Both the position numbers and the translations under genes were made by a program. Shown here piece after piece: positions 14,396 through 35,584 of a DNA stretch of 53,566 bases. The DNA lies in the IMG/VR virus record IMGVR_UViG_3300025133_000143, positions 1 to 53,566 of that record. One strand, written 5' to 3'. Each line of letters opens with the position of its first letter. Positions within the stretch are counted from its first letter, which is position 1. The notes under the pieces were generated by a model, which had not been told where the DNA came from, ran no database searches, and was given only the letters and a program-made list of their open reading frames with translations. Source of the DNA: a virus.

Positions 14396-17300
14396 CTATC
14401 CCAGCAATCTAAAGTTTCTACCGATGCTGCGTGTACTGAAACCCCATTTTTCATTGAATTCAAGTTTAGCAAGATAGGGTCGGTTTACTAAAATGCGGTC
14501 GCTCTTTTTCAGACCCCAGCATCGGATCTTTGTCATCGCATTGGTATCATCAATAACTTCCATAATCCAATAAGATTTACCATGTTTGGTTTGCTTTTCG
14601 ACAACTTTGCGAGGGATAAACCAAACGGCCTGACAAAGCTCTGGATCGTAATTTGCAATAGCTGGAATATATAACTCACTCAAGCGATCATATATTTCTT
14701 GATTCATAACTCTCTTGAATGGGAAGACCCCCGTCAACTCAATAATGTGTGAGATTTTCTCTTCGTTGGAGAATTCCCCCTCGGGGGCATAGAGTTCAAT
14801 ATTTTCTTCTAGATTCTTAAGTTTGCGCGGTCTATCGATAGCTACCGCAGACCAGAAATGCTTTTCACCTGTGAACCTTTTGTCGACCAAACTTTTCAAG
14901 GCGCCACACCTACATAATACATCTAGGGATTTTTTATTTAATTTAGAGTAAACGATGTTATCATTGAATAGAAAGTCCTCTACTTTGGCGAACGGTCTAT
15001 TAACAATAATCTGATCGATAGCCACCTCTCCGAGTCCCTTGATCGAAGAAAGGGGCTGAATCAGCGTAGAGCCATCTTCCGAGATTTCCCAAACTTTACC
15101 CGATGAGTTGATATCCAGTCCTCGAATTTCAAAGCCAAAAGACTTAGCGATCCCAATTGCTTTTTCTTTTTTGGCTTCTGGTTCTTTATCGAGAAATGCC
15201 GCCATCCATTCGGCTGGATAGTAGTTTAGCAACCACGCGCACTGATAGGAGAGGAAACAATACGACACTGCGTGACTCTTATTAAATCCATAACCTGAGA
15301 AATATTCGAATGTTTCCCAGAGTCTTGTCCCCTCTCGTTTGGTTAGTCCCTTCTCGGTACAACCAGTGATAAATTTGGTAAAGAGTTTTTTCTTAACCTT
15401 GGCTTCTTTGCCTGTTCCTTTCTTGGTCAAAACTTTGCGTAGTAAGTTCCCCTCGTCCAATGAAATATCTTTGCCCAACTGGTGTGCCAAAAGTGCTATC
15501 TGTTCTTGGAAAATTAAAAAACCGTGGGTTTTCTCAGTTACTTCACGAACCGTATCGTGGACATACTTGATAAGATGCGGGTGCTGTTTGGCCTCAATAT
15601 AATTATTGTGAACATTGGCGCCCAATGGTCCTGGGCGATAGATAGAAGTGATGGCGGCTAAATCAATTAAGCTTGTTGGCTTTGCTTGGACACAGAAGTT
15701 TTGTGCTCCACCTTCAGTGAACTGAAAAATTCCTCCCCACTTACCTTTGTGGAAAACATTTTTATAAACTTGTTGATCATCCAGATCAATCTTATCGGGG
15801 TGAAGATAATTATTATAATAAGCTTGGACATCTTCGAAAGAAGGATCCTCGTTCCCATAGTGGCGCTTAAGAATATGGCGGATAGACCCCTCGATCATAC
15901 GCAAGGTTGAAAGGCCAAGAATATCAAACTTAATGAAGCCCATAGGTTCCAAATGTCGGACATTTTGTCCTTCGCTCCATGGAGTTTGGCGAACGCCTCC
16001 CGAGTTAATTAAGGGCATCCGACTATTTAAGTTTTCTCCGACCACAACTCCACCAGCATGTCGTGAACATGATCTAACCTGACCATATAATGCATCTACA
16101 TGAGTTTTAACATGAGGATATTTGGCCAAAAAGGTCTGCAATGTCTGGCTGAACTCCATCACCTCTTCAAAGGTCGGTGTATAAACTCCAGTTTTAATCC
16201 CATGCCTAATTTTAGCCGGATTGACTGCTTCATAAATCATCTTTCCTGTCACTTCATTAGATTCAGTAAAGGGAATGCCATAAAATTTAGAAATGTCTTT
16301 AATCAAACTTCTTAGCTGCAGTGTGTTCCAGTTCGAAATAGGTACAACTTTATCGTCACCCCACTCCTCGATAAGAATATCTTTTAATACCATAGGATCG
16401 GATACATCATAATCAATGTCGGGATAATCTGTGGCATCTGCGCGGAGAAACCGAGCAAACTGTAGATTCCACTTAATGGGGTCGACCTGCGTGATATTCA
16501 AAGCATAAGCCACCAACGAACCCGCAGCAGAACCTCGTCCCGGTCCAGCGATCATTACCTCGTTGGCCTTTAAACTAATCTGATTCATTGTCAGGAAATA
16601 TTTAGAAAAACCTCTATCCGAGATTACTCCCAATTCCATCCTCAATCTGTCAGTATATTCTTGACTGGTATGTAAGTTTTTGTTTCTCAGACCCTCAAGG
16701 CAAAACCTTTCCAAAGCCGTGTCGGCAGTTTCGCCGGCTGGAATAACAAAGTCTGGCAATTGGACTTCATTGTTTGGCAAGAAGGATTCGATCCGGTCGT
16801 GTGCAATGAAGTGGGTAGTCGTCATAGAGTTATAAACAAGATCGTCGTCATAATCTACTCCGCAGGATTTAGAATACTTCTTATACGCGGCCCACATTTG
16901 GTCGCCATTCCGAGGATAAAGTTCATAGCCAATTTCCTCTACTCCTTCGGGAAGCTCTCCGGTCATATAGTCGGGTTTAGATTTACCAAGCCAGCCAAGT
17001 CTTTTGTAAAGTTCCCGGTCTTTCCAAGCAGTTGGATTCGGATAGTGAGAATCGCACGTTGAAATTAAATCAATTCCAAATTCCTCATGCATCTTAATAA
17101 TGTATTTGTTAAGTTCATGTTGCTCGGGAATATTGTTCCATTGAAGTTCTCCATACCAGCGGTCTCCGAAGATATCCAGCATTTGTCTTGTTGTCCCACG
17201 CATAGCCTCTAGAACGGCTTCAGGGCCATTGTCCCGGTTCTCCCAGTAGTTTCCGGCGTATACTCCTCCTAGACATGCGGACGACGCTATGACCCCTTGA

Positions 17301-17815
17301 GAGTACTTTTTCAAGAGTTTGTAGTCTACGCGAGGGAATCTATAATAATTTCCAGGCTCAAAGGATTCGGAGATAAGAGAAAAGAGATTGTTTAGCCCCT
17401 CTTGATTCTGCGCCAAAAGAACAAGATGGCGCCTTCGATTGAGGATGTTTCGCACAGCCTTCTTTGATGCCTCTTCATCTTCCACGGTGGTTGCCGTCAC
17501 ATCTTTACTCAATGCCTTTTTGCGTTTCTTGTCTTCTTTAGCCGCTTCATAATCAGCTTTCCAGTCTTCCATTGAAGGTAGGAAATAGGCTTCAATGCCA
17601 AAGATGGGTTTAAAATCTCTCCCCTCTTCTTTCATTTTCTTTGCGTGCAGAACTTGATGAGGTAATCCATTCATATTCCCATGATCTGTCAATGCCAGGG
17701 CATCCATTCCATTTTCATATGCAAAATCCATATGTTCCTGTGGGTAGCCGATGGCATCAAAGATGCTTCCTGCTACACTGTGTGCATGTAATCCAATAAA
17801 GGGGATTTCACTCAT
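14396..17815 (-). CDS. dnaE: DNA polymerase III alpha subunit (C-family, DnaE-type)
   Basis: A 1139-residue C-family replicative polymerase. The N-terminal PHP domain shows LHAHS and TDHGNM (residues ~11-50). The palm has PGRGSAAGSLV and the catalytic PDIDYD (about 465-470 from this start), followed by KFDILGLSTL, the third acidic site. The C-terminus carries an OB-like domain after the helix-hairpin-helix region and ends at RLLG. Length matches bacterial DnaE. I preferred the ATG at 17815, 9 nt after AGGAG, to the ATG at 17821, which is only 3 nt from it. No separate exonuclease or clamp gene is in the window; the PHP domain may proofread. A strong promoter lies 160 nt upstream inside the previous gene. 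Confidence 0.96.
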   Translation of the reverse strand: MSEIPFIGLHAHSVAGSIFDAIGYPQEHMDFAYENGMDALALTDHGNMNGLPHQVLHAKKMKEEGRDFKPIFGIEAYFLPSMEDWKADYEAAKEDKKRKKALSKDVTATTVEDEEASKKAVRNILNRRRHLVLLAQNQEGLNNLFSLISESFEPGNYYRFPRVDYKLLKKYSQGVIASSACLGGVYAGNYWENRDNGPEAVLEAMRGTTRQMLDIFGDRWYGELQWNNIPEQHELNKYIIKMHEEFGIDLISTCDSHYPNPTAWKDRELYKRLGWLGKSKPDYMTGELPEGVEEIGYELYPRNGDQMWAAYKKYSKSCGVDYDDDLVYNSMTTTHFIAHDRIESFLPNNEVQLPDFVIPAGETADTALERFCLEGLRNKNLHTSQEYTDRLRMELGVISDRGFSKYFLTMNQISLKANEVMIAGPGRGSAAGSLVAYALNITQVDPIKWNLQFARFLRADATDYPDIDYDVSDPMVLKDILIEEWGDDKVVPISNWNTLQLRSLIKDISKFYGIPFTESNEVTGKMIYEAVNPAKIRHGIKTGVYTPTFEEVMEFSQTLQTFLAKYPHVKTHVDALYGQVRSCSRHAGGVVVGENLNSRMPLINSGGVRQTPWSEGQNVRHLEPMGFIKFDILGLSTLRMIEGSIRHILKRHYGNEDPSFEDVQAYYNNYLHPDKIDLDDQQVYKNVFHKGKWGGIFQFTEGGAQNFCVQAKPTSLIDLAAITSIYRPGPLGANVHNNYIEAKQHPHLIKYVHDTVREVTEKTHGFLIFQEQIALLAHQLGKDISLDEGNLLRKVLTKKGTGKEAKVKKKLFTKFITGCTEKGLTKREGTRLWETFEYFSGYGFNKSHAVSYCFLSYQCAWLLNYYPAEWMAAFLDKEPEAKKEKAIGIAKSFGFEIRGLDINSSGKVWEISEDGSTLIQPLSSIKGLGEVAIDQIIVNRPFAKVEDFLFNDNIVYSKLNKKSLDVLCRCGALKSLVDKRFTGEKHFWSAVAIDRPRKLKNLEENIELYAPEGEFSNEEKISHIIELTGVFPFKRVMNQEIYDRLSELYIPAIANYDPELCQAVWFIPRKVVEKQTKHGKSYWIMEVIDDTNAMTKIRCWGLKKSDRILVNRPYLAKLEFNEKWGFSTRSIGRNFRLLG

Positions 17816-18692
17816 TATCATTTACTCCTATTTCGTTCCATTCGTGGTACGATAAAAATATGGGGTGTGGTCGTTGGACCTGTTTACTTTCGGGGGATCC
17901 TAGATAAGTACAATACTTATCCCATGCGTCTATGTTGTAATACCATGGGAGAGTAACTACTTTCTTATTATCTATTATAACACAATTGAATACTTTGTCA
18001 AGAGAAAAAAACCGTGCTGACCAGCGCTCTTCTTTTGGTAGTTTCTCTCTGGGGAATAAACCGTCCTCTAAAACTTTTGAGTTATACATTCCAGTCCCCT
18101 CCCGAATAACGTGGCGCGCATTGACAAAATCATCTTTGTCAAAGGTGAAGCCCAAGTATTCTCCATCTCGGATAGTCTTCCCCTCGTGTTCTAAAAGAAA
18201 ACCTTGGTCGCTCGAAATAATCTTCCGATGCTCTCGCAAGATGCTCGGGTCGTAAACCCCCCACGGGAAGGCTACATAGTTTCTTTTGGGGATGACCCAC
18301 TTACTTAATTTAGAACTAATCTGAAAAGCAGTCATGGCTCCATGGAGGATGCTCCAAGCGAGACAATCTCGCTTTCCAACGTCCTTTGCTTTGATGGGGA
18401 CGTAATAGATCGGAATAGGCTTCCGAGATTCCGAAGGGAAAACATCCAGTCTTCGCCCGATCCACACGGGGTCTTGGACGTACTCGCCAAGCCTGTGTCT
18501 GATAAGGGGCTTTGTATCATCATTACAGACGATCCAGATCGTTTCGCATCCAGCCCACGCACATTCATATACGGCTCGCTCAATGGCGAGATAGTTGGGG
18601 GCGATGGGCATCATAGCATCGCCCCAGTCAAAGTCAAAGTCTAGGGGCTCTCCCGCTACCGGGACAATACCAGCTAAATGATAACTACTCAT
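17808..18692 (-). CDS. Conserved phage protein, possible nucleotidyltransferase fold
   Basis: A 294-residue protein. The opening AGIVPVAGEPLDF resembles the nucleotide-binding start of sugar-nucleotidyltransferases (GT-A fold), and ERAVYECAWAGCETIWIVC followed by a HRLGEYVQDPVW stretch fits the next helix-strand. From memory, such proteins recur in marine T4-like phages without an assigned role. The ATG overlaps the stop of the upstream gene (ATGA), so the two are coupled. A near-consensus promoter lies inside the 3' part. Possible roles are nucleotide-sugar synthesis or base modification. Confidence 0.65.
   Translation of the reverse strand: MSSYHLAGIVPVAGEPLDFDFDWGDAMMPIAPNYLAIERAVYECAWAGCETIWIVCNDDTKPLIRHRLGEYVQDPVWIGRRLDVFPSESRKPIPIYYVPIKAKDVGKRDCLAWSILHGAMTAFQISSKLSKWVIPKRNYVAFPWGVYDPSILREHRKIISSDQGFLLEHEGKTIRDGEYLGFTFDKDDFVNARHVIREGTGMYNSKVLEDGLFPREKLPKEERWSARFFSLDKVFNCVIIDNKKVVTLPWYYNIDAWDKYCTYLGSPESKQVQRPHPIFLSYHEWNEIGVNDNE
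17974..18001 (-). promoter_or_regulatory. Intragenic sigma70-type promoter for dnaE
   Basis: TTGACA (17996-18001), a 16-nt spacer, and TATAAT (17974-17979) preceded by TGTGT: both boxes match the consensus fully. It lies inside the coding region, about 160 nt upstream of the polymerase start, and would boost polymerase over its upstream neighbours. Confidence 0.75.
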
Positions 18693-20241: not shown

Positions 20242-20383
20242 GTTTTCCTCTTTTGTTTTTCTTTTCGTTGATGGCACGGAGTTTACGCTTGGAGGGCGAA
20301 TCCAACAGAATTTCATCTCCCCCCACATGCTCCTTAATTAACTCTTTAATGGTTTTAATAAAATTTTCATTCTCTGTATTCAT
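20231..20383 (-). CDS. 50-residue basic protein
   Basis: A short frame of 50 codons starts with ATG at 20383, has GGGAGGAG 5-6 nt upstream, and stops at 20231, overlapping the ThyX start by 11 nt. The protein is a helix (NFIKTIKELIKEH) followed by a very basic tail of Lys, Arg and Gly. It fills the gap between the GroES-like gene and thyX, and its good ribosome site supports it. It may bind nucleic acid; it could also be only a translational link to thyX. Confidence 0.6.
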   Translation of the reverse strand: MNTENENFIKTIKELIKEHVGGDEILLDSPSKRKLRAINEKKNKRGKRGK

Positions 20384-22917: not shown

Positions 22918-24285
22918 TTATTTCTTTCCTCTTTTCTTCTTAAATTTGGCGTATTTTTCTTTTAATTTAACTTCTTGCCTCTTTTTGGCGCTCTCTTTAA
23001 CTTCCCCAATTGTTTCCCCGGTTGAGGGTAATACTTTAATTTTAACATTTCTGGTGTCCATAATAATAGGGAATATAATACCGTCGGGACCATTCCTGTT
23101 CTTTGCAACAAAAATACGTCCGGTATTTGTTAACTTATCCTCCACGGTTCTGGAAATGGTGAAAATAAAATCTGATACAAAACACTTATTAAAGGCCTCC
23201 GAAATTGATTCCATTGTAATGACTTCAGCATTTAATCCAGAACGATTAGTTTGAGATGCTGTCCAAACACAGCATTGTTGTGTTTGAGCCAAAGCGCGTA
23301 GCTGTTCATAAATAGTCTCTAACTCATGCCTTTTCTCTCTTAATACAGAATCGGGACGTAATAAATCTCCATAATCTACAATGATCATATCGGGCTTTAA
23401 CTGCCGATTTGCTAATTTTTCTACATGATTTTTAATAGTCTGAACTGTCGCCGATTTGGTGGGATATTCCTTCACAATGAGAGTCCCATCTAACGATTCG
23501 ACCTTTTCATATATTTCTTCCTTAAAAGAACTTAAATCATTGAGAGGGATACCGGTGATACAACTATCAAAACGTGAGCCAACGACAGTGTCTGCCAATT
23601 CTAATGTATAATATACTACCGTCTTTCCGGCTAACAGGGCTTCGGTACCCAGATGAACGAGTGCCATACTTTTACCGGCGCCGGTTGGGGCAATCACCAC
23701 CCCCAACTCTCCTTTCCCGAGACCTTGGGCAGAAATTTCATCAACATAATCCCACCCGGTAGAAACGGGGTCTCGTACTTTGAGAATGAAACGTTGCTCA
23801 AAATCTTTTAAATAGTCGTGGCCATAGTCGGAATCTGCACCAAGTTTTAATGCCTCGTTGATGACTCCGGCGATCTCATCAAAAGATGAATCCTGAAGGA
23901 GTTTTACCGATTTAAGCATGGCTTCTTTTAGCTTTTGTTTTCTACAAAAATCTAGAGTAGTGGTGGTGATGTACTCTTTATTTTCTATGTCGACTCTATG
24001 AATTCTCGCAAAAAAGTCTCTTATTTGTTTTTGAATTGCCTCACTATGTGAGTCCAGTTCTGTTCGAAGAATAGACTTCATTATCTGCTCAGAGGGATGA
24101 ACTGAAAATTTCTTTCTGTATTCGAGAATCAGTTCTACGAAAACCTGCAGATAGCGCAGTTCTAAAAAATTAATATTCAGAACCTCAGAGATTTGATCGG
24201 CGAAGGGTCGATCTAATAAAATTAGATGGCAGAGGTTTTCTTGAAAATCTTTTCCATACCGACTAAAGTTTTCTTTTTGGGCCAT
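22918..24285 (-). CDS. Replicative DnaB-type helicase
   Basis: A 455-residue hexameric helicase: an N-terminal helical domain (1-150), then a RecA-type ATPase with Walker A APTGAGKS (199-206), an ELADTVVGSR motif, Walker B MIIVDYGDLL and an arginine-containing WTASQTNR segment. The basic tail (KFKKKRGKK) is phage-specific. It would unwind duplex ahead of the polymerases (T4 gp41 equivalent). It has its own promoter and an inverted repeat across its -10. GGGAGG lies 4 nt before the ATG. Confidence 0.94.
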   Translation of the reverse strand: MAQKENFSRYGKDFQENLCHLILLDRPFADQISEVLNINFLELRYLQVFVELILEYRKKFSVHPSEQIMKSILRTELDSHSEAIQKQIRDFFARIHRVDIENKEYITTTTLDFCRKQKLKEAMLKSVKLLQDSSFDEIAGVINEALKLGADSDYGHDYLKDFEQRFILKVRDPVSTGWDYVDEISAQGLGKGELGVVIAPTGAGKSMALVHLGTEALLAGKTVVYYTLELADTVVGSRFDSCITGIPLNDLSSFKEEIYEKVESLDGTLIVKEYPTKSATVQTIKNHVEKLANRQLKPDMIIVDYGDLLRPDSVLREKRHELETIYEQLRALAQTQQCCVWTASQTNRSGLNAEVITMESISEAFNKCFVSDFIFTISRTVEDKLTNTGRIFVAKNRNGPDGIIFPIIMDTRNVKIKVLPSTGETIGEVKESAKKRQEVKLKEKYAKFKKKRGKK

Positions 24286-24322: not shown

Positions 24323-24332
24323 GGAGCGTCAA
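24304..24332 (-). promoter_or_regulatory. Sigma70-type promoter for helicase/RNR
   Basis: TTGACG (24327-24332), 17 nt, and TATATT (24304-24309) preceded by GTGT, in the 43-nt gap before the helicase gene. Confidence 0.85.
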
Positions 24333-25285
24333 GCTGAAATTATGATTCTTTTGAATGTTGTGAATAAATCTGAAGTGTTCCAGTCTCCGAAGCCATCCTC
24401 TATCATTCTCTTAATGGCTTCCATTTTATTAAACTGTGGTTTAAAGTTTTTAATTGTTTCATTAATATAAGTCTTCCCCACGATCGAAATAGAGGGGGAG
24501 TATAATTGCATAATCTTATAATTATCTCGAATCACTTCTTGACATTCGACGATATTGTCAAATACTTTAAGGCCGCTGGCATCTCTCTCGCAACTTTCTA
24601 TTAATTGCGGGATCGTCACATCCTCTCCCTCTTTAAAGAAAGGAAATCGCTTGGAGATCGTCTTTAAGCCAACTCCAGGAACTCCGTCTAGATTATCCGA
24701 CTTGTCTCCCACCACCGCTCTGGCCATGGCAAAATTAGTAGGATGGATCCCGAATTCGTCGATGATGGTATTCTTATTGAGGAACTTCTTCTGGATAGGT
24801 CGATAAAGAATAGTTTCTTCATCGCAAAGCTGAAAGAAATCCTTGTCGCTGGAGATGATTAGTTTTTGCCAGCCCCTGTAATGCGCGGCTTGCGAGACAT
24901 GAGCGATGATATCGTCAGCCTCCACCCCATCTATCATTAATTGTATAATTGGCATCTCATTTAAAAGCTCCATCAGGCGCATCTGTTGCCATACTTTATT
25001 AGCTAGTTCTTCATCGGGAGTTAAATTTCTAACATTGCGGTTCAAGCGGATAGGTTTGCGCCCCGCCTTATAATTTTTATTTGTTATTTTTCTTCGCTGA
25101 GAACCTCCTGCTCCATCCCAAGCAATAATAATTGCGTCGGGCTTCATCTCTCGACACAGCTTCTGTAAGATTTTGACGAAACCTTTGTAGCCACCAATGG
25201 GATTCCCCGTTGGAGACAAACTTGGGTCTACAATATAAGCACGAAAATACGCATTAAGCGCATCTATAATCATTAAGCGTTTCAT
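24329..25285 (-). CDS. 5'-3' exonuclease (flap/RNase H type)
   Basis: A 318-residue PIN-fold nuclease of the Pol I N-domain / T4 RNase H family that removes RNA primers. It shows IDALNAYFRA, IIAWDGAGGSQRR, KNYKAGRKP, VEADDIIAH, the acidic cluster SSDKDFFQL, and the DNA-binding VVGDKSDNLDGVPGVGLKT helix-hairpin-helix. Most metal-binding Asps expected are visible. It has its own promoter. GGAG lies 5 nt from the ATG. Confidence 0.93.
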   Translation of the reverse strand: MKRLMIIDALNAYFRAYIVDPSLSPTGNPIGGYKGFVKILQKLCREMKPDAIIIAWDGAGGSQRRKITNKNYKAGRKPIRLNRNVRNLTPDEELANKVWQQMRLMELLNEMPIIQLMIDGVEADDIIAHVSQAAHYRGWQKLIISSDKDFFQLCDEETILYRPIQKKFLNKNTIIDEFGIHPTNFAMARAVVGDKSDNLDGVPGVGLKTISKRFPFFKEGEDVTIPQLIESCERDASGLKVFDNIVECQEVIRDNYKIMQLYSPSISIVGKTYINETIKNFKPQFNKMEAIKRMIEDGFGDWNTSDLFTTFKRIIISA

Positions 25286-25385: not shown

Positions 25386-26495
25386 CTACTCTTCATTATC
25401 ATAAAAATCTTCCGCTTTGCCTTCGCGCTTGTCAAACTTCATAATAACTTCTTCGTCCATAATCTGGAAAATTCTTTGGCGGAATTTTTCTTCCTGCATC
25501 TTTTCTAACCACTTAGATGCCTGAAATTTTTCGGTCGACGCGTCTTCAAAATTCAGTGTATACCAGGCACCCGCTTGTTCGATATTTTTAGAACCTTTGA
25601 CGGCATCAAACAAAGATTCGTCATCCTGGATAGCCACTTCGTCACTACCCCATAAAATTCTAAAATTACATCTGCGCCCCGCTGTTCCAAACCGTGATTT
25701 TTCTAACTTAACTTTAACTTCGGATCCAATCCGAAATCCATTATCGTCCAACACGAAACTAGCCTTGGCTTTCCGGCCAGTCAACCAGATACGCAAAGAA
25801 TAAGTATAATTCATAGCCTTTCCTCCGGGGGTTACATACGGAGTTGTCATAGCCTCGGCTGCAAATCTAGTAATGTTAGTTTTAAGTTGGTTTAAAACCA
25901 AGAAGGTACACTTATGTTGAGCAATAGATAAAGTTAATTTTGCCATCCCCTTGGCTAAAATCCTAGCCTTGACGGCCATTGAGGATTGAGGATTAAAATC
26001 TCCCTCAACATCGGAAATAGCCGGAGTCTGAGCTAAAGAATCCCAGATAAAAAGGATCTGACTTGGGACGCTGGCCAATAATGTTTCGATTGTTTCAAGA
26101 ACAAATTCGACCGAAGTGGGTTGAATGTAGAGAATTTTATCTACATCGCACCCAGCGCGCTCAAGGAACGCAGGATCCAAGGCCGATTCCGAATCAAAAT
26201 ATACTACATCGATGCCCATCTTTTGGGCGTTGGCGGCAATTTGTGCCGCCATATATGACTTCCCAGTCGATTCCAGGCCGGCGATTTCAGTTACTTTACC
26301 AACTGGGATGCCAGCAAGCTGACCTCGGCAGATAATAGAGTCCAACCATCGTGAGCCAGTGGGGATCCATTGGCGCACTTCGGTCGGGTTTTCCTCTTGC
26401 AAGTTGTGAGCCACTGTCATGCCGGCTTTTTTATTAACCAGCTTGCGCATGTCATCGATAGACAATTGACCAGTCTTTTGTTTTTTACGCATCAT
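25386..26495 (-). CDS. RecA/UvsX-type recombinase
   Basis: A 369-residue strand-exchange ATPase. Walker A GLESTGKS is at 73-80, the DSESALDP segment at ~101, Walker B ILFIWDSLA near 147-155, a MAVKARILAKGMAKLT helix, and the DNA-binding loop region with PYVTPGGKAMNY. It is closer in layout to bacterial RecA than to T4 UvsX, with an extended acidic C-terminus. It would support recombination-driven replication and repair with the gp32-like SSB. Two ATG codons open the frame; the first is listed. Confidence 0.94.
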   Translation of the reverse strand: MMRKKQKTGQLSIDDMRKLVNKKAGMTVAHNLQEENPTEVRQWIPTGSRWLDSIICRGQLAGIPVGKVTEIAGLESTGKSYMAAQIAANAQKMGIDVVYFDSESALDPAFLERAGCDVDKILYIQPTSVEFVLETIETLLASVPSQILFIWDSLAQTPAISDVEGDFNPQSSMAVKARILAKGMAKLTLSIAQHKCTFLVLNQLKTNITRFAAEAMTTPYVTPGGKAMNYTYSLRIWLTGRKAKASFVLDDNGFRIGSEVKVKLEKSRFGTAGRRCNFRILWGSDEVAIQDDESLFDAVKGSKNIEQAGAWYTLNFEDASTEKFQASKWLEKMQEEKFRQRIFQIMDEEVIMKFDKREGKAEDFYDNEE

Positions 26496-26530: not shown

Positions 26531-27004
26531 TTAAGAATTTTCATTTGTAGCTGTATTATCGTCCTCGGTATCCTTCTCAATTTCCACCAATTCAATATCG
26601 AATTGTAAATCTTGGCCCGCTAGAGGATGATTTAAGTCTACTGTAACGCTGTTTTCATTCAGTTGAGTAATTCGACCCATAAGAGATCGGCCTTCAGGTG
26701 TAGCCAAGGGAACTGGCAGACCTTCAGCTAAAGTAATGTGGTCTGGGAAAGCACTCCTGTCAATTTCGGTATGAGCTTCTGCCACAACATCACCATATGC
26801 TTCATCTTTCGTCAAGGTGACGCTTTTCTTTTCTCCGACTGACATGCCTACTACGGCGTCGTCAAATCCTCGAATCATTTGGCCTGCGCCAACTTGAAAT
26901 CCGATTGGCTCGCCACGTCCATACGAGTTATCGAATTCGGTTCCATCAGTTAGACTACCGCGATAATGAACCTTTACCTGCGTGCCTTTTTGTGCTTTTA
27001 ACAT
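26531..27004 (-). CDS. SlyD-like FKBP peptidyl-prolyl isomerase
   Basis: A 157-residue FKBP with an insert-in-flap domain, the SlyD/FkpB arrangement. It shows GTQVKVHYRGSLTDGTEFD, GAGQMIRGFDDAVVGM, the insert region DRSAFPDHITLAEGLPV, and DLNHPLAGQDLQFDIELV closing the FKBP fold. It catalyses proline isomerisation and can act as a holding chaperone; the His-rich metal tail of E. coli SlyD is missing. I chose the ATG at 27004 over an open frame 17 codons longer that lacks FKBP sequence. It lies between ssb and recA. Confidence 0.9.
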   Translation of the reverse strand: MLKAQKGTQVKVHYRGSLTDGTEFDNSYGRGEPIGFQVGAGQMIRGFDDAVVGMSVGEKKSVTLTKDEAYGDVVAEAHTEIDRSAFPDHITLAEGLPVPLATPEGRSLMGRITQLNENSVTVDLNHPLAGQDLQFDIELVEIEKDTEDDNTATNENS

Positions 27005-27075
27005 ATTGATTGTTTTCCTTTGTCTTGTTAAAAAAGTGAGGCATCTGTAACCCATGCCTCCCTGCGGATTAAAAA

Positions 27076-27843
27076 TTAAGTTCCTAGCAAATCTTGGAAG
27101 GCTGCGTCTACACTAGTGGTAGTTGTCGCACGGGTCACCGCCGCTTCGGCTGTTTCCGTAGCATCTCCAAGAGAATTCATAAACTCGTTAAAAATATTCT
27201 CAACTTCCTCTTGAGGCTTGCGAGTAAAAAGATTTTCCATATCTGGAACAGTCTTGAGAAGGCGTGCGCACTCCTCTTCTCCGCCAACTGCATCATCACA
27301 AAGCGGTGATGTGCGGCGCCGAGGGGTAAGAGTAGTCTTTGGAAACTGTGCTCCCGGTGGCTTTCCATAACCCAGCGTTAGGTCGGTTCCATCTTCGCAA
27401 TCGGTGATGTCACCATACTCGGGATTGAGAACCAGATTCAAGAGAGCGGTATACGCTTCCTTACCGTAGCCCCAAACTCGGACGCCTTCGGCTTCTTCGC
27501 CTCGAACGAGGACTGGTGAAAAGAAACGTTGTCGCGGTGACATATCCTTTGCCAACTTCAACGTGTCGGTATCTTGCGAATCGTTGTATTCTTTCCAGAG
27601 TTGGTCCTTAAAGTCGCAGATAGGGCAATCGTCTCCGAAATTCTTCTTGGGACAAAGAATACCAGAGCGATTCTCTCCACCAAGGTTATAGTGGAAGAAA
27701 TAATCCTTGAAGGGATCTCCATCGGCAGTCGGGACAATACGAATTACCTGCTGTCCGTCTTGGGGTTTCCAAAAACCTCCTGCCTTGTTTTTGTTTTTGA
27801 CTGCATCCAGTCGTGCTTTGATTTTAGTAATGTCTAATGCCAT
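27076..27843 (-). CDS. Single-stranded DNA-binding protein (T4 gp32-like)
   Basis: A 255-residue SSB. The basic N-terminus (KIKARLDAVKNKNKAGGFW) suits cooperative self-contact, the core holds a zinc-type cluster His51, Cys64, Cys73 and Cys76 (CPICDF), and the C-terminal ~60 residues are acidic then Thr/Ala-rich, for partner binding. This is the gp32 plan with its zinc-binding loop. It coats replication intermediates and supports RecA. Its promoter is one of the strongest in the window, and GGAG lies 9 nt before the ATG. Confidence 0.88.
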   Translation of the reverse strand: MALDITKIKARLDAVKNKNKAGGFWKPQDGQQVIRIVPTADGDPFKDYFFHYNLGGENRSGILCPKKNFGDDCPICDFKDQLWKEYNDSQDTDTLKLAKDMSPRQRFFSPVLVRGEEAEGVRVWGYGKEAYTALLNLVLNPEYGDITDCEDGTDLTLGYGKPPGAQFPKTTLTPRRRTSPLCDDAVGGEEECARLLKTVPDMENLFTRKPQEEVENIFNEFMNSLGDATETAEAAVTRATTTTSVDAAFQDLLGT

Positions 27844-27969: not shown

Positions 27970-28239
27970 TTATTCAAAATCTTTGATAAGTTCGAATTCA
28001 TCAACATTCTTAATGGTGAACTCTTTTACTTCACCAACTACTGTTTTTTGATTGAAGATACGAAAAGCTTGTTTATCTAAATCCCATACAAGTTGATGGC
28101 CTTCGACCAGTTGGCGTGGTTTACCAGTTCCTTTAAGTTGGGATGAAAGAAAATCTTCTGATAACTCAGAAATTTTTACAAACCTCATAGTTCTAAGACT
28201 TCCATCTTTTTTCATATATGTTCCTAAATTGGCTTTCAA
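27970..28239 (-). CDS. Small conserved hypothetical protein
   Basis: An 89-residue protein with beta-type segments (TMRFVKISELSE, HQLVWDLDKQAFRIF, VVGEVKEFTI), probably a small barrel. The frame is open to 28290, but a strong promoter occupies that stretch, so I chose the TTG at 28239, which has AAGGAG about 6 nt upstream. The function is unknown; it has its own promoter and lies next to ssb, suggesting an early role. Confidence 0.6.
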   Translation of the reverse strand: MKANLGTYMKKDGSLRTMRFVKISELSEDFLSSQLKGTGKPRQLVEGHQLVWDLDKQAFRIFNQKTVVGEVKEFTIKNVDEFELIKDFE

Positions 28240-28261
28240 GTTCTCTCCTTTTCTAATATAT

Positions 28262-28290
28262 AATATAGCATGATTTTTGGAGGGTGTCAA
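28262..28290 (-). promoter_or_regulatory. Sigma70-type promoter for small gene upstream of ssb
   Basis: TTGACA (28285-28290), 17 nt, and TATATT (28262-28267) preceded by ATGC. The TTG start follows ~22 nt later. Confidence 0.82.
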
Positions 28291-28322: not shown

Positions 28323-29147
28323 TTAGGGTTGTATATATGAGGCGTGCGCGATACAATAGGAAATGTCATCTTCGTACTTAGTCTGGAATACCGCATATGA
28401 AACATTTGTAGTCTTGGATACTTTTGTTTTCATCTGGTTGACTATCGAGCGGAATAGGGTGCCGTCGTTTTGTAGCTTGTCTTCATTTACTCCATAAATA
28501 TAACATACATCACGGCGCATGTCAAGGGGAAAAAATATTTTTTCTTCATTTTTAGCAGCATCAAAAATTCCAAACGTTGAAATCTTACACACATCACGGG
28601 GTTCGTTTAATTTTCCCATCACGGGGTTCGAATTCTGAAAGATGTGGATCATATGAAGAGTAGTAATAAGGACTTCGTTTAATTTATCATAGTAAGACAT
28701 AATTGGCACATCCCCAATAATCTTTTCCAATTCTAGGTTAGAGACAAGATACAATCTCTTAAAGGCAGATGATCGGGCGTATTGCTGAAGTACGTTACGC
28801 ACCAAACGTTCTCGTAGAACTTGTACCTCTGTCAATAATTCAATTTCGGGCTGAATATAGAGGAGAGTAACGTTTTTGTGATCTAATTTTTCTAAAATTC
28901 GTAGAGAGGATACCGAAATTGCGCCTCCCCCTGCTAGAATGAAGAGGGTTTCTCCCTTTATTGGCTTAAGAAATGATGCCAAACAAGGAAGGATTGCCTC
29001 GTATTCTTCAGTTGTTTCATAGGCCGGGAAATTATAAGAGCGATCTCCTTCTATCCCCACATCTATTTGGTAACATTGGTACTGGGAGTATTTCTCAAAA
29101 CTTTTGGCTATCTTACACCCTGCATTTCCTAATCCCACTATATTCAT
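28323..29147 (-). CDS. Tubulin/FtsZ-superfamily-like protein
   Basis: A 274-residue protein that follows the FtsZ/tubulin GTPase plan. GLGNAGCKI (5-13) matches the first glycine-rich loop; LFILAGGGAISVSS (68-81) sits where FtsZ has its GGGTGTG signature loop, but is altered; LLYIQPEIELLTE matches the KPF...EG strand-helix; RLYLVSNLELEKI (131-143) matches VIPNDRLLEI; and SYYDKLNEVLITTLHMI (151-167) matches the FRKADDVL helix. About 100 further residues would form the second domain. Jumbo phages use such proteins (PhuZ) to place DNA in the cell. This one is shorter and may not hydrolyse GTP. It lies beside the A-family polymerase and is not a virion protein by context. Confidence 0.65.
   Translation of the reverse strand: MNIVGLGNAGCKIAKSFEKYSQYQCYQIDVGIEGDRSYNFPAYETTEEYEAILPCLASFLKPIKGETLFILAGGGAISVSSLRILEKLDHKNVTLLYIQPEIELLTEVQVLRERLVRNVLQQYARSSAFKRLYLVSNLELEKIIGDVPIMSYYDKLNEVLITTLHMIHIFQNSNPVMGKLNEPRDVCKISTFGIFDAAKNEEKIFFPLDMRRDVCYIYGVNEDKLQNDGTLFRSIVNQMKTKVSKTTNVSYAVFQTKYEDDISYCIAHASYIQP
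28497..28525 (-). promoter_or_regulatory. Intragenic sigma70-type promoter
   Basis: TTGACA (28520-28525), 17 nt, and TATATT (28497-28502) preceded by TATGT, inside the tubulin-like gene. It shares the extended -10 exactly with the ssb promoter and would add transcription of the genes below. Confidence 0.7.
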
Positions 29148-29154
29148 AACACTC

Positions 29155-30345
29155 TCATAATTTTAATTTCTTTAAATTTCCAAAATCGCGGCCGGCCCGG
29201 ACATTAACGATAAACTCTCCCAACTCCGTATCCCCAAAGATTTTAATTATATTGGGAAGTAAATGCCGGTCTTCGAAAGATAAATCAAGGATAATAGAAT
29301 CATGAACCGGGAAGGCAACGAATGACTCCTCTCCCTCTAAATAACTATTGACTTTGAGCATCTGTCGAAGAACGTTCTCGGCGCAGGTGCTCTGAATAAT
29401 ATAATTCAGGGCCGTCCTCTCTTCGGAGGGGATGACCTTGTCCCAAAAGGTTCTCACTTGGCCCTGAGTGAAGTACTTTTGTACCACAGAACCCCGGTCG
29501 TAAGCGCGGGAGGATAAATAATCCTTGCTATCCGGATTATATAGCCACGCAAATATTCTCTTTTTGGCTTCCTCTCGGGTGATAAGTCCTCGGTAAACAT
29601 TTTTAATATTCCATTCGTGAATATCTTCTTGAGGCTGTGCTTTCCCTTGCAAAGCTATTAGTGTTCTTAACTCGGCTGCGTTGAAATCTAGTTCTATAAA
29701 AAAATCATTGGTAGGTTCCACAACGCATCTATATTTTCGATCCATCGTCAAAATTGGAAAACTTCCCGCTTCCGTGGTCAGCCTTCCGGTTTTAGTACCG
29801 TAAGGGTTGAATTTACAAGAGATCACGGCCTTGTTTAAGTTGCGAGAAAATTGTCTAGCTCTCGGTTGATGCATAAGGGGAAATAAGTTTTTCGCATTTA
29901 TATTTAACTTTCGATAGCGCATTTCTCCCAGAGTTTTGGCCAATGCTACGCGGTAATCATAGTCAATAGGTTTCGAAAAATTATGAAAAACATGTTTACA
30001 AATCTGATCTTTCATATAACAATATTCAAGCAAAAATCGCTGCGGTACTAAATCGAAAAAACAGTTTTCTTCGAGCGACACATCGGCTATCTGGAATGAG
30101 CGCATAAAAGATTTGAGCTTGGTGCAAATGATCTGCCATCGCCCTAAAAGATGGTCCGGGCAAGCCTCCTCTAGAGTGAGACCTCCGGAGTATATTTTGG
30201 CATATTGGATATTTCCGCCTTTGAGGGAGGGAGCGTAAGACCATGTATGAGTTAGATCGAGAGGTGCCTCATCATAAAACAATTCCCCATCGACGTAGAC
30301 GCCTACACATTCGGATTTATCATCCAGAGTTTGAAAAAACAACAC
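29155..30345 (-). CDS. Minimal A-family DNA polymerase
   Basis: A 396-residue Pol I-type polymerase domain without the 3'-5' exonuclease domain. Residues 183-189 (GTKTGRL) match the TGRLS template-binding site; motif A is ELDFNAAELR with catalytic Asp220; motif B is diverged (TREEAKKRIFAWLYN, 256-270, lacking the usual KxxxFGxxYG); ALNYIIQST matches the later NxPIQGT helix; and motif C is FPVHDS with Asp349. Both catalytic Asps are present, so activity is likely. It would be a second polymerase beside DnaE, perhaps for gap filling with the separate 5'-3' exonuclease. It starts with GTG near AGGAG. Confidence 0.85.
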   Translation of the reverse strand: MLFFQTLDDKSECVGVYVDGELFYDEAPLDLTHTWSYAPSLKGGNIQYAKIYSGGLTLEEACPDHLLGRWQIICTKLKSFMRSFQIADVSLEENCFFDLVPQRFLLEYCYMKDQICKHVFHNFSKPIDYDYRVALAKTLGEMRYRKLNINAKNLFPLMHQPRARQFSRNLNKAVISCKFNPYGTKTGRLTTEAGSFPILTMDRKYRCVVEPTNDFFIELDFNAAELRTLIALQGKAQPQEDIHEWNIKNVYRGLITREEAKKRIFAWLYNPDSKDYLSSRAYDRGSVVQKYFTQGQVRTFWDKVIPSEERTALNYIIQSTCAENVLRQMLKVNSYLEGEESFVAFPVHDSIILDLSFEDRHLLPNIIKIFGDTELGEFIVNVRAGRDFGNLKKLKL

Positions 30346-30350
30346 ATCTC

Positions 30351-31646
30351 CTAATATCTTTTGTAAGTGCCGAGCGACACCACCTGTGTATAAAATTCCT
30401 CAAAATTCTTAAAAGACCACTTAGATTTATCTAAACTTGCGTAGTATCTCTTATACACATCGTAATTGAGGGATCCATTAATGAACCTTAAATCATCAAA
30501 CTTCTTATTAATATAACGTAAAGCCTGCGTCTTGTCAAGGGTCTTTACAATATTTTTAGAATTATTAAAAATATGATCTAGGCGCGCCTCTGAAAATTTA
30601 GTTCCCTTTTCCACATTCTTTAACTGAACATAGAAACGCAGCCAATGGAGATATGAAAAGTGATCTTCCACTTGGTCTAGGCGCACGGGTTGTCGCAAAA
30701 TAGTAGTCGTGCGCATTTTACCATTGCGATGTTGTTGTTTTTTTATTTTCGGTCGTGACCTCACTATGCCGTTATAGGTACTCACCGCCAAAAGCTGCAA
30801 CTCCGAGATATCCCGCAAGAAGGTGGGCTCAGTATAGGCCGAAAAAAAAGAAGTGGGACCGGTTGGTCCGTTGAGATAGAGACTCATGAATTTTTGCATA
30901 GCTGGAGAGGAGAGATTTGCAACCAAACGCCAAGGAGCGTTCATATCAATATAAAACCCATATTTAAGGGCTATATTTTTATAAAAGTTGAAAGCTAGGC
31001 TCCGGGTGAAATCTTTTATTTTTTCAATGTCAGAATCTGCGTCGTAATCCCCTATTTCTAAGGCTAGCCCGCTTGATAGGATGCCGGTGGCGGAACTGAC
31101 CACGCTTGATGACCGTGAGATGGAGGTCTCGACGGCGGCTTCTTTTAATAATTGTAAAAATCGAGGTAAAAAGTCGTCAAAGGAGGTGATAGTAGCATCA
31201 TTAGCCAACAGGCGAATCGATAGTTGTCGAATGTGCCTCTGTTGTCGATTATAATCCACCGTAGGCGCGATATATCCATATGTGGCCTTAAAGTTGGTAA
31301 TGGGAGGGGCGGGAGTGGGGAAGCGTCCTTTTTTGGCGCAATATTCTATCTCTTTTTTCATTTCACGATAGGCCGCAGCCACGAAATTCACTACCTTTAC
31401 ATTTTCCTCTATTAAAGAGAGAGAGCCGGGAGAACAGCTTGCCGGTACCATGTCGGTGTTCAGGCGCCCGTAAAAAAAATCCTCCTGATTCCAAAAATCT
31501 CGGATAGGGGCCGGAAGTGTAAATTCTGCGGGGTTGTCATTGTCGTAAAAAGCATAGGCTCTATAAATTTCTCTCTTTAAAAACAAATCAAAAGTAGTTG
31601 AGCCATTAGAGGCATCAAAAAAAGAAGATGGCAAAGGATCAGCCAT
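30351..31646 (-). CDS. Conserved virion or baseplate-associated protein
   Basis: A 431-residue protein without recognised motif. It is mixed alpha/beta, with an aromatic-rich start (FFDASNGSTTFDLF) and a basic central loop (RPKIKKQQHRNGK). It is encoded directly after the 1312-residue baseplate-type protein with a TAATG overlap, so it probably belongs to the tail module. A sigma70-type promoter lies inside its 3' end and serves the replication genes that follow. The function is unknown. Confidence 0.6.
   Translation of the reverse strand: MADPLPSSFFDASNGSTTFDLFLKREIYRAYAFYDNDNPAEFTLPAPIRDFWNQEDFFYGRLNTDMVPASCSPGSLSLIEENVKVVNFVAAAYREMKKEIEYCAKKGRFPTPAPPITNFKATYGYIAPTVDYNRQQRHIRQLSIRLLANDATITSFDDFLPRFLQLLKEAAVETSISRSSSVVSSATGILSSGLALEIGDYDADSDIEKIKDFTRSLAFNFYKNIALKYGFYIDMNAPWRLVANLSSPAMQKFMSLYLNGPTGPTSFFSAYTEPTFLRDISELQLLAVSTYNGIVRSRPKIKKQQHRNGKMRTTTILRQPVRLDQVEDHFSYLHWLRFYVQLKNVEKGTKFSEARLDHIFNNSKNIVKTLDKTQALRYINKKFDDLRFINGSLNYDVYKRYYASLDKSKWSFKNFEEFYTQVVSLGTYKRY
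30510..30538 (-). promoter_or_regulatory. Intragenic sigma70-type promoter for polymerase/tubulin genes
   Basis: TTGACA (30533-30538), 17 nt, and TATATT (30510-30515), inside the tail gene 165 nt before the A-family polymerase start. It marks the switch from the structural to the replication block. Confidence 0.75.
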
Positions 31647-34600
31647 TAGGGACTCCCCACGCCGCCGGCTGCTGTCTTTGGCGCGCTGAGATCAGTCTCG
31701 CTTTCTTCGGGACATTCTTCCGTGGATGCATTTAGGCCGGACGAGAGTCGCGACGATCCATCTCCGCTATTATCGAAGAGGCATTCGAGATCGGTCGAAA
31801 ATACATTATCGCCGCTTATTTCGTTTTTAACTTTAGTGATCAAATGATAGCCGCCGAGGCCTAACTGGTTGGCATGCGTGCCAGGAGTACTTGGGTGTCC
31901 CAGATCCTTTCCGAGGGGCTGCATATTTAGATAGACATATTGTCCTGGATGGAACATGGTATTACCTACCATGTTCACATTCGCTTTATAGACCGTTGCG
32001 AGTTCCGCAAGAGGATTATAGGAATCTTGCTCAAAACGCGCTTCTCTTAGGAAAGGCTGGTCAGTCTTTGCGAATTTAATTGCCTTTACCAAACCGTTTT
32101 CGGCGCCCATATAGAGATGATAAATGCCCCTCTTAAAGTCCGCGTCATGTTTGCCGGCCCAGCCTTTCTCGGGATTGGATGTTTCAGCGTAAAGATAAAT
32201 ATAATGAAACATGGAAGTAGTCTTCTTCCAAGGATCTACAGTATAAAGCGGCGCAGTGGGGGTAATGTGTTTTAAGTCCATGTTATTTTTATATGTCGAC
32301 TTTTTGATCGCCGGGTCTGTTGAGAAATCTCCATATGTTGTCCCCCTGGCTTCGATGGGGCTTTTGTCTCCGACAGAGGGCATCGAAACCATGCCCGTCT
32401 TAAAAGTAATCTTTTGCCGCATGGTTCCCTGGAAACATTCTGCATTAAAAATATCCACCAGCGATTCTTGGAGGAGGCTTCGAAGACATGGTAAAAGACC
32501 CAGACTGGTCCTATTAGAATCGGTCACATTTCTTACAAACCATTTACGAATGGCTCTAAGCGAAATTGGAATATCCCCCATATTTATAGTTTTATAGCCC
32601 GGGCCAAAGGGGTCCTTTAAAGTCAGAGGGCCCAATAGAAGTTTTACATTTTTGGACACACAGGGCGCATACGCCACACTAGTTTCCCCCACGTTGACAT
32701 CAGTATAATCCAGAGCATGTTTGGCGAGTTCTTCGAACAGATCGGAGGCGAAAACAAAATTAATATCCCAATGATCGCTATCCTTCTTCGCTGGGTCGTT
32801 GATACCACCCTTAGAATCTAAATCTAAAAATTCATCTACCGTGAGAGTGTCCCCTCCTTTGGTCACTGAGCCGTCAGTGATAAGAAGTTGGGTGGCGGCC
32901 TCATCTCTGATTTGGCCGGCCAAGACCGGATCCGTAAAGCTGCCGAACCAATTCGTCCAAGTCCCCTTAGCTTCTTCCTCCACTATCGCGCGGCGCTCTT
33001 TAACCGCCTCCTGATGGTCTTGGACTTGCTGCGCGTCTTGGCCTGCAACGTTTTTGACGTATTGACGATAATCGGCGTCATCAGTATCCGTTTTTAAATT
33101 TATGCCCTTTCCTCTGGCGAATTTCTGGCCGGCCAAATCTAAAGACTGTCCCACCATAACTGCCCGATTTTCAGTGAAGGCCTGCCAGGAGCTTTTAGCG
33201 CCCTGGATACCCAGCGCGCCCGGGTTGGTTATAGTAGTATTTTTAGAATCTAATTTAACTTTCGTTTGCTGCCACTGCGCCTGTTTAATCAGTTCTCGGG
33301 TTACCCGACCAGTATAGATCTGAGAATTGCCATCCATATCATACACCCCTTCGGCGAGTTCCGCCAACAAGGAGTCCGCCATCCAGGCCCTGGCCCATTG
33401 ATTAATATTATCTAATTTTGTCTCTGCTGTTTTGACCGCCGCCTGATCACAATAAACTTTAGCTTCGGCCAACTCATTATTTACCTCACTACGACGAGCG
33501 CGGACAAAAGGAGTGGCCAGAACATTGGCTTTGCTGTCCGATAAAAGTCCTTCGATTCGAGCGCGGTAGTGTAGAGTCAAAGTAAAGACCCCATCCTGGC
33601 CGATATCGAATTCATGATCAATCATCGTTAAGAATAGGGGTGTGATGTTATGTTTGACGCCGTCTTTCATATCGGAATCAAATATCGCGCCTTTTGCGGG
33701 CGCCCAGCCGACGACCATTTTCATTTCAAAATGTGTAATACCATCGCGGTCATTGAGAACGGGTTGTCGACCGGCGGCGCCGATTGTTCCTTTTGTGGGA
33801 GCCCCTTTAGCACATTTAGCTGCTGCCGTCTTTTTACGGCCGGCTTGGGCAGCGGCCACTTTCGCTTGGAGATCTTGCATGTCGCGAGCGGGGCGCCTCA
33901 AGAAATCTAAATAACTCCATTTTCGGCTGCCGGCGCCTTTGCGCGGTGTGGTTAGTTCATCAAAATTCTGAAAAAACAAAGTCACAGAAGCTCTCACGTC
34001 ATTGCGTATTGTAGCCGGGTTATCACTGATGTATTCCCAGGTGATATTTTTGATACCTACTTGGCCTTTCATGGCGTTGTCATTCGTCATGCTGGAGAAA
34101 TTTGTTTGTTGGGGAAATGTCATTTCTTGTTCATCGTGGGGGCAACCTTGGGCATTGTAAAAGACTTTATAAAATCTATAAACTGGTACCAAATGAGATA
34201 ATTGGATATTGGTGCTCTTTTGGATAAAGTTGGACCAACCTTTTTGCATAAATAATTTATTAATAAATTCAGGAGGGCTCCCATGGGCCATCTCTACTCT
34301 TTTGTAGGCTTCAATACGTCGATCTCGTTTTTGTTTCAGTTGAGCTAAATTTAATATGTTAGAGGCCAAAATACATTTCTCGCTCATAACGAGATCTTTC
34401 ATGGAAAGATCTAGCGACATGTTGGCAGTATCCAGAGTACTGCACGGGTCGCGGTTTTCTTTCTTTCGGAGGGCCAGCATCTTCTCCTTGAGTTTTTCTT
34501 TCTTGTCCTTATCCGTGGTTGCGGCATATTCCCGCTCTAATTCTCTCATCTCAGCGGGAGCGCGGAAGTCCTTTTTCGCCTGGTCTTTATTAATAACAAA

Positions 34601-35584
34601 ATAGTTATAAGATAAAATATCCTTCGCTGTGAGGCCGCCATAGCCTAACATTACATATCGGGCGTTTGAGCGGGGAAGGCCAGCCAACCCATCGGCTTTT
34701 TTTGCGTCTGCCTCCGTTCCGGTACCAGACGCGAGAAGGGCGCGAATATCAATCCCAGTCTCCACCAGGAAGTCCTCCAACGTCATCCGAAAATACTTGC
34801 CCTTAAAAGGTAACATATCTTCGGTAATAACTATTTGTGTTGGCACGCCCGGGCCGGATGGGACAAAGGACGCAAGATTCTCGTAATTATTAGCATCGAT
34901 TGTCTGACCCACCCGAGCCACCATTTGAAAGGGGTGGCTCATCACCGATTGGTATTTGTCGCCTGGGGCTACAGTGGTCGAGTGTGCCCGCGACGAGAAA
35001 GTACCCTTTGCGCGCGTATAGGGAAATCGGAGTGCATCTTGTCTTTCCACAACTGTGCCGGCGGTGTGGATGGAAACAAATGGATTATCTTGCATGCCAA
35101 AACTTGAAATATTTTGATAACGCACATTAGACGCCCCTACAAAATCCATAATGGCGTCCTGTAACACCACTTTGGAAAAGAAATTGGCAGCAATATTCTG
35201 GCGTATCCCTGGTACGTCTGCCCAGGCGCCGGTTCGAACACCCGAACTCGGGTTACTTGTGGCCTTAAATGGATCATCGTCGGGGGCGTATTTATCATAA
35301 AGATATTCCGCTTGATCTCTGGATGGTCCATCGAGGTTCTTCGCGCCAAAGATCTTTGTCAGGCCCTGGATCCTATCAAGTCCGACGGAACCTTCGAGTG
35401 CTATAAGATCAAAAACTGTGCATGGTTTGCCATTGAGTTCGCTCGAAACCTGAGTGTTGATAATCAGGGCCTGTTTTTGGCTCGTGGGATTCCAAGAAAA
35501 ATTGTGATACCCCTTGGGTGCCTGCCCCGTAGAAACATTTAGGCGCTTTTCTTTCTCGCGTTCTTCTTGGGTTTTGCTAGCCAT
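31646..35584 (-). CDS. Large tail/baseplate structural protein
   Basis: A 1312-residue protein, the longest in the window. It starts with a charged region (KTQEEREKEKRLN), has a coiled-coil stretch near 380-410 (rich in KDKKEKLKEK), several beta-rich repeats, an Ala/Lys-rich linker (~660-690) and an acidic C-terminus ending TAAGGVGSP. The size, position between the LysM baseplate gene and the replication block, and overlap (8 nt) with the LysM gene suggest a baseplate hub or wedge component. I cannot match it to one T4 protein. Confidence 0.7.
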   Translation of the reverse strand: MASKTQEEREKEKRLNVSTGQAPKGYHNFSWNPTSQKQALIINTQVSSELNGKPCTVFDLIALEGSVGLDRIQGLTKIFGAKNLDGPSRDQAEYLYDKYAPDDDPFKATSNPSSGVRTGAWADVPGIRQNIAANFFSKVVLQDAIMDFVGASNVRYQNISSFGMQDNPFVSIHTAGTVVERQDALRFPYTRAKGTFSSRAHSTTVAPGDKYQSVMSHPFQMVARVGQTIDANNYENLASFVPSGPGVPTQIVITEDMLPFKGKYFRMTLEDFLVETGIDIRALLASGTGTEADAKKADGLAGLPRSNARYVMLGYGGLTAKDILSYNYFVINKDQAKKDFRAPAEMRELEREYAATTDKDKKEKLKEKMLALRKKENRDPCSTLDTANMSLDLSMKDLVMSEKCILASNILNLAQLKQKRDRRIEAYKRVEMAHGSPPEFINKLFMQKGWSNFIQKSTNIQLSHLVPVYRFYKVFYNAQGCPHDEQEMTFPQQTNFSSMTNDNAMKGQVGIKNITWEYISDNPATIRNDVRASVTLFFQNFDELTTPRKGAGSRKWSYLDFLRRPARDMQDLQAKVAAAQAGRKKTAAAKCAKGAPTKGTIGAAGRQPVLNDRDGITHFEMKMVVGWAPAKGAIFDSDMKDGVKHNITPLFLTMIDHEFDIGQDGVFTLTLHYRARIEGLLSDSKANVLATPFVRARRSEVNNELAEAKVYCDQAAVKTAETKLDNINQWARAWMADSLLAELAEGVYDMDGNSQIYTGRVTRELIKQAQWQQTKVKLDSKNTTITNPGALGIQGAKSSWQAFTENRAVMVGQSLDLAGQKFARGKGINLKTDTDDADYRQYVKNVAGQDAQQVQDHQEAVKERRAIVEEEAKGTWTNWFGSFTDPVLAGQIRDEAATQLLITDGSVTKGGDTLTVDEFLDLDSKGGINDPAKKDSDHWDINFVFASDLFEELAKHALDYTDVNVGETSVAYAPCVSKNVKLLLGPLTLKDPFGPGYKTINMGDIPISLRAIRKWFVRNVTDSNRTSLGLLPCLRSLLQESLVDIFNAECFQGTMRQKITFKTGMVSMPSVGDKSPIEARGTTYGDFSTDPAIKKSTYKNNMDLKHITPTAPLYTVDPWKKTTSMFHYIYLYAETSNPEKGWAGKHDADFKRGIYHLYMGAENGLVKAIKFAKTDQPFLREARFEQDSYNPLAELATVYKANVNMVGNTMFHPGQYVYLNMQPLGKDLGHPSTPGTHANQLGLGGYHLITKVKNEISGDNVFSTDLECLFDNSGDGSSRLSSGLNASTEECPEESETDLSAPKTAAGGVGSP

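Follow-up and report, generated by a model that had tools for sequence, protein, structure and literature searches.

The window is the whole stretch of viral DNA that was analysed (53,566 nt); all of its features given below are on the minus strand (-). The gene of interest lies at 28323..29147. It starts with ATG, its stop codon is included in these coordinates, and it encodes a signature-less tubulin/FtsZ-fold protein of 274 aa. The ATG is located seven bases past the stop of a gene encoding a 396-aa family-A DNA polymerase (PolA; 29155..30345; PF00476, 2e-11), in which motifs A (DFNAAELR), B (R-x3-K-x3-F-x3-Y) and C (HD) are intact according to the alignment. An SD-like GAGAG (29152..29156), read from the sequence, overlaps the PolA gene stop codon. 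The preliminary description of this DNA had pointed out five segments resembling FtsZ, the shortness of the protein and its adjacency to an A-family polymerase. The last two are confirmed, PolA being encoded directly upstream, and the five segments are all found in the ORF translation in the order claimed: GLGNAG (residues 5–10), AGGGAISVSS (72–81), QPEIELL (99–105), VSNLELEKI (135–143) and SYYDKLNEVL (151–160). The FtsZ-like protein at 28323–29147 is real and not a chance likeness.

The genes that follow are, in order, those encoding a small WYL_2-like protein (27970..28290), found after the tubulin-like gene in most relatives; a gp32-like ssDNA-binding protein (SSB; 27076..27843; PF08804, 1.1e-14; phrog_1192, 4.8e-27); a UvsX/RecA-type recombinase (25386..26495; PF00154, 6.6e-38; phrog_97); a 5'-3' exonuclease (24329..25285; PF02739, 3.9e-30); and a DnaB-like replicative helicase (22918..24285; phrog_19, 3.2e-75). 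An FKBP-type peptidyl-prolyl isomerase is encoded between the SSB and UvsX genes (26531-27055); its gene is also found in one relative (L042) and is missing from that place in most others. A DnaE-type DNA polymerase III alpha subunit of 1141 aa (PHP, alpha, finger and HHH) is encoded at 14396..17821 (PF07733, 4.1e-48; PF17657; PF02811). DnaE is thus encoded in the window, and it was found in 14 of 15 contigs of the clade; PolA as sole replicative polymerase was dropped on this account. Together with the separately encoded 5'-3' exonuclease, PolA resembles a split Pol I that accompanies a DnaE replicase. Phages of the tubulin-like clade yielded no family-B polymerase. No clamp (PF02916, PF02768) was found either, a weak result, the PF02916 search having no phage positive control.

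The gene order was read in relatives with enough sequence. It is: large structural genes, PolA, tubulin-like gene, usually the WYL_2-like gene, gp32-type SSB, UvsX, 5'-3' exonuclease, DnaB, RNR. The tubulin-like gene is located downstream of PolA and on the same strand in 79/80 PolA-anchored viral loci. The lone exception (L075) corresponds to a contig end, at the edge of which a profile search still finds the first ~36 residues. Conversely, PolA is upstream in all 66 tubulin-anchored loci with enough upstream sequence. The two genes overlap or are within 18 nt of each other in 59 of the 80 loci; in the others, an ORF of roughly 100 codons or an insert of 1–2.5 kb separates them, and the pair is kept despite distances of 0.3–2.5 kb. 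In two loci (L073:2639-2947 and L075:5185-5493), the intervening ORF has ~103 codons and is MazG-like by eye; an insert of similar size is found between the two genes in about 15 loci. The tubulin-like gene is a core gene of the replication module.

Single-sequence searches with the window protein gave nothing above noise in Pfam, NCBIfam, PHROGs, PADLOC and PDB sequences, and by tblastn none of 50,697 phage records, those of PhuZ phages among them, was matched. The Tubulin model PF00091 (cut-off: 33 bits) does not match the window protein; the best score shown for a member is 19 bits (E 0.0019), below the cut-off. No model of Pfam, NCBIfam, PHROGs or PADLOC recognises any member scanned. The first relatives were obtained by a degenerate DNA scan for GLGNAGCKI, which yielded 21 viral contigs. 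Each encodes a homologue over the length present (32–55% identity, except for one identical copy). A scan with the family motif [VI][LF]Q[EQ]Y[AT]RS[GA] then gave at least 598 confirmed viral loci. Residues were counted over 143 distinct members; the T7 motif was checked in register in 86. No cellular homologue was found in a scan of genome contigs carried out with the narrow GLGNAGCK pattern only. The median dN/dS of 43 close pairs is 0.09 (maximum: 0.14), a strong purifying selection that indicates a functional gene. A tubulin-fold protein devoid of hydrolysis machinery is encoded by a near-universal gene of the replication operon in hundreds of uncultured phage contigs.

The fold was predicted for two members. 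The AlphaFold2 model of the window protein (18 aligned sequences) has a pLDDT of 92.1 and a pTM of 0.91; that of a divergent member, L128 (63 aligned sequences), has a pLDDT of 94.9 and a pTM of 0.93. Both display a two-domain tubulin fold with a core helix H7. In Foldseek comparison of the window model with the PDB, the best 50 matches are all FtsZ or TubZ (E from 5.5e-12; TM 0.65–0.73 on the query; about 12% identity). The L128 model has the same PDB matches, CetZ among them. The tubulin/FtsZ fold claimed in the preliminary description is therefore borne out by the predicted structures, and by fold, as modelled, the protein belongs to the tubulin/FtsZ superfamily. The alternative of a plain Rossmann-fold dehydrogenase, or another nucleotide enzyme with a chance glycine loop, was looked for in the same structures. 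Weak TrkA_N matches occur in some members and, where the range is shown, cover the N-terminal strand-loop-helix; the matches of both models to FtsZ, TubZ and CetZ span instead the whole length, with H7 and the C-terminal domain covered. Judged by the predicted structures, a plain Rossmann dehydrogenase, the outcome named in the preliminary description as refuting, is itself refuted, and this class of explanation is considered extremely unlikely.

Among predicted viral structures, the best match of the window model is an 'FtsZ' of an uncultured phage, followed by other phage tubulins. This best match, A0A6J5RW92 (annotated 'FtsZ Cell division GTPase', uncultured Caudovirales phage, BFVD; E 4.1e-11, TM 0.80 on the query), is probably the nearest catalogued relative, the comparison being one of predicted structures between a protein of 452 aa and one of 274 aa. 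In profile–profile alignment (hhalign), P is 0.015 to FtsZ and 1.9e-4 to PhuZ; FtsZ against PhuZ gives 3.3e-6. As this significance is modest, the claim of homology rests on the fold, and the alignment supplies the register only. In this register, AGGGAISVSS is placed on the FtsZ signature loop, VSNLELEKI on IPNDKLLKV and SYYDKLNEVL on DAFGAANDVL.

The T1 glycine loop GLGNAGCK (residues 5-12; 29112..29135) is conserved: G5 and G7 in 143/143 members, G10 in 140/143. Residue 12 varies over the 143 members, with N in 72, K in 27 and A in 25; the invariant K12 of the first alignment was an artefact of the GLGNAGCK search pattern. The T4 loop AGGGAISVSS (residues 72-81; 28905..28934), located by hhalign, stands in place of the tubulin signature GGGTGTG. 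The loss of the canonical GTG, first noticed in the window protein, proves to be a trait of the whole family, the signature [SAG]GGTG[SAT]G being found in 0/143 members. The equivalent of the T7 loop (residues 173-188; 28584..28631) lacks GxxNxD/NxDxxD, and the catalytic motif NxDxx[DE] is found in 0/86 members checked in register. GxxNxD matches in some members are not T7: they lie within or past strand S7, from residue 192 onwards. In FtsZ, the GxxNxD of T7 triggers hydrolysis in the neighbouring subunit (PMC8456036). No helix is found by DSSP between H7 (149–171) and S7 (189–196) of the window model, nor in the L128 model: H8 is missing. The window model ends 5 residues beyond the last strand, devoid of an H11 helix or acidic knuckle tail. 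Two motifs are specific to the family: QQYARS (residues 121-126; 28770..28787), with Q121 and R125 in 143/143 members and S126 in 141/143; and, at the C-terminal end of H7, HMxN (residues 165-168; 28644..28655), with H165 in 142/143 and N168 in 136/143. The window protein has HMIH, i.e. H168, at this place. The HMxN motif is a candidate partner surface.

FtsZ (PF00091; bacterial and archaeal division) thus resembles the family in its whole-length fold (E about 1e-11) and shares with the window protein the T1 glycine loop, the PND-type Asn (N137) and the aromatic residue and Asn/Asp at the start of H7 (Y153, N157). The window protein differs from FtsZ by the absence of GGGTGTG, of the T7 GxxNxD, of H8 and of a C-terminal linker or peptide. 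Two sequence features by which the classical families are defined are absent, so that the family is best classed as a new divergent branch: neither FtsZ, nor TubZ, nor PhuZ.

The phage tubulins known to us (PhuZ and TubZ) form GTP-driven filaments moving DNA or the phage nucleus. As a group of phage and plasmid tubulins, they resemble the family in being encoded by phages, in their tubulin fold and in having the best sequence-profile affinity to it. PhuZ differs in its T4 signature, catalytic Asp and C-terminal H11, all kept; it belongs to phiKZ-like nucleus-forming phages, whereas the present gene is a core gene of the replication module of T4-like phages. The signature-bearing PhuZ is dispensable and found in about 66% of nucleus-forming phages (PMC10299810). 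The analogy with PhuZ and with DNA centring drawn in the preliminary description is not supported, given a family devoid of the T4 signature and present at 79/80 PolA loci versus 66% for PhuZ. A cytomotive filament of the PhuZ/TubZ kind, centring or segregating phage DNA, would agree with the shared fold, with the hhalign value to PhuZ and with phage FtsZ/tubulins as nearest predicted viral structures. It conflicts with the T4 and T7 counts given above, with a C-terminus that stops after the last strand, where phiKZ TubZ has the C-terminal helix H11 (PMC3678025), with the contrast between an accessory, patchy PhuZ and a core gene, and with longest contigs that are T4-like and not phiKZ-like. 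Such a filament is very unlikely.

The guanine pocket shows an all-or-none pattern. N137 (28737..28739) is aligned by hhalign with the Asn of the FtsZ PND motif (tubulin N206) and is predicted to contact the base or ribose. Y153-x3-N157 (28677..28691), at the start of H7, is placed by the same register and by family counts; Y153 and N157 align with tubulin Y224/N228 and S. aureus FtsZ F183/D187, and are predicted to stack on guanine and to form a hydrogen bond with it. The base contacts are mapped through this weak profile alignment and known FtsZ and tubulin structures; the contact roles of N206, of the H7 aromatic residue and of N228/D187 are taken here as established for these structures. 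The pair N137/N157 is complete in 132 of the 143 members, the window protein included, and wholly absent from 11; no member is mixed. Such a distribution is as expected when two residues serve a single ligand. Of the 132 members that keep the pair, 131 have G/S/A at position 75 (T4 loop); all 11 pocket-lost ones have Glu/Asp there. On the trees, the loss of the pair corresponds to one to three events, not to eleven independent ones, and a Fisher p-value is for this reason not usable as a measure of evidence strength. Natural pocket-plus and pocket-minus proteins make the role of the nucleotide directly testable.

The pocket-lost members are maintained. Within one such clade, dN/dS is 0.06–0.07; the modelled pocket-lost member (L128) keeps the fold; Q121 and R125 are invariant also in these members, and the seven examined in detail all keep Q121, R125, S126, H165 and R188. 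Selection, together with the retention of fold and family residues, indicates that the conserved job is not nucleotide-dependent in every lineage. A job done without nucleotide in some lineages argues against a GTP-driven motor.

Phage inhibitors of FtsZ are known; as a rule their genes are early, accessory and patchy. With this precedent, the protein might act as a decoy or poison on the FtsZ of the host, capping host protofilaments through the intact nucleotide-side face and so blocking division. The fold match to FtsZ speaks for such a role, as does the retention of top-face elements (T1, base pocket) with loss of bottom-face ones (T7, H8). The identity to FtsZ is, however, about 12%, the loops around the nucleotide are rebuilt, the gene is near-universal in its replication module where inhibitors are usually patchy, and pocket-lost lineages keep it under selection. 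A decoy of this type is unlikely; it is the second strongest rival.

What computation establishes (the fold, the loss of T4, T7 and H8, an Asn pair kept or lost as one, the constant position in the operon and the purifying selection) leads to a favoured explanation to which about even chances are given: a tubulin/FtsZ-superfamily protein, divergent and signature-less, that would serve in the replication module as a guanine-binding, non-hydrolysing protein docking on a partner, and not as a treadmilling filament. In most members, a guanine nucleotide would be bound and not hydrolysed by the tubulin mechanism. The sequences, which keep the Asn pair and lack the T4 signature, the T7 loop and H8, are best read as the preliminary description suggested, namely as those of a protein that may bind GTP without hydrolysing it. 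The bound nucleotide would be a structural cofactor or a sensor of GTP/dGTP. Docking on a partner in the replication machinery would involve the family surface Q121-x-Y-x-R125-S126, H165-M-x-N168 and R188. The neighbouring PolA (split Pol I) would be the first candidate partner, because of its adjacency. The order of genes is kept across the whole module, so that PolA is not singled out, and the same phages encode DnaE, which speaks against PolA as a special partner. In one to three lineages, the pocket would have been dismantled and an acid placed in the phosphate loop, giving a nucleotide-independent version locked in one state.

The strongest rival is a static, non-hydrolysing tubulin-like polymer that scaffolds the phage replication factory, the nucleotide or its acidic substitute locking an assembly-competent state. 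Its position as a core gene of the replication module suits this role, and the covariation of the Asn pair with the acid swap in T4 is expected if the site controls one state. In other tubulins the loss of the T7 acid stops dynamics and not assembly, which makes a static polymer possible: filaments are still formed by PhuZ D198A, whatever its expression level (PMC10299810). On the other side, the absence of the T7 loop and of H8 removes half of the canonical longitudinal protofilament interface, and no C-terminal tail follows the last strand; non-canonical longitudinal contacts are possible. A static scaffold is judged doubtful. A bolder reading is held only tentatively, at clearly less than even chances: a tubulin-superfamily protein recruited as a non-cytoskeletal, near-obligatory part of a phage DNA-replication machine, in which guanine would be sensed or used structurally without hydrolysis, some lineages being nucleotide-free with an acid in the phosphate loop. 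If the protein is a replication factor, the tubulin fold is usable outside the cytoskeleton.

The phages carrying the gene form a large uncultured T4-like clade. Their capsid, protease, tail sheath and tail tube are of T4 type, and their longest contigs have 159–204 kb. The contigs are presumably marine, judging by IMG dataset numbers. A resemblance to the uncultured Far-T4 phages serves as a lead on their placement; genes of T4 type seen in this respect encode capsid, protease, sheath and DnaB. Far-T4 phages were recently linked to Flavobacteriales, and the main text of the papers describing them does not mention tubulin or FtsZ (PMC4360716, PMC13037479). The best cultured matches to the DnaB helicase are Flavobacterium phage immuto and Microcystis phage Mel-JY01. 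Both carry collinear genes for PolA-like protein, SSB, UvsX, 5'-3' exonuclease, DnaB and RNR, but no tubulin-like gene was found there or elsewhere in the record. In Mel-JY01, the PolA-like gene of the module (L144:13561-14787) is present but diverged, and a family-B polymerase is encoded elsewhere in the genome. In Rhodothermus phage RM378, p023, located downstream of the 'DNA polymerase' gene p024, was compared by eye as a possible homologue and rejected. The family profile has no match in RM378, immuto or Mel-JY01, and DnaE was not found in these three cultured phages. PF00623 (multi-subunit RNA polymerase) was not found by a search that also missed PF00623 in phiKZ.

Other genes of the window encode a phage GroEL-type chaperonin (3058-4626; PF00118, 2e-66), a ThyX thymidylate synthase (19513-20328; PF02511, 7e-46) and an IMP dehydrogenase (9162-10235; PF00478, 2e-106). 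The last catalyses a step of guanine nucleotide synthesis and is encoded by the same genome as the putative guanine-binding protein. A 1312-aa protein (31646-35584) has no family match; it has a fixed place in relatives, where its counterparts are poorly conserved and have about 710-1310 aa. A DNA methyltransferase-like protein (phrog_3689, phrog_21201) is encoded at 10740-12242.
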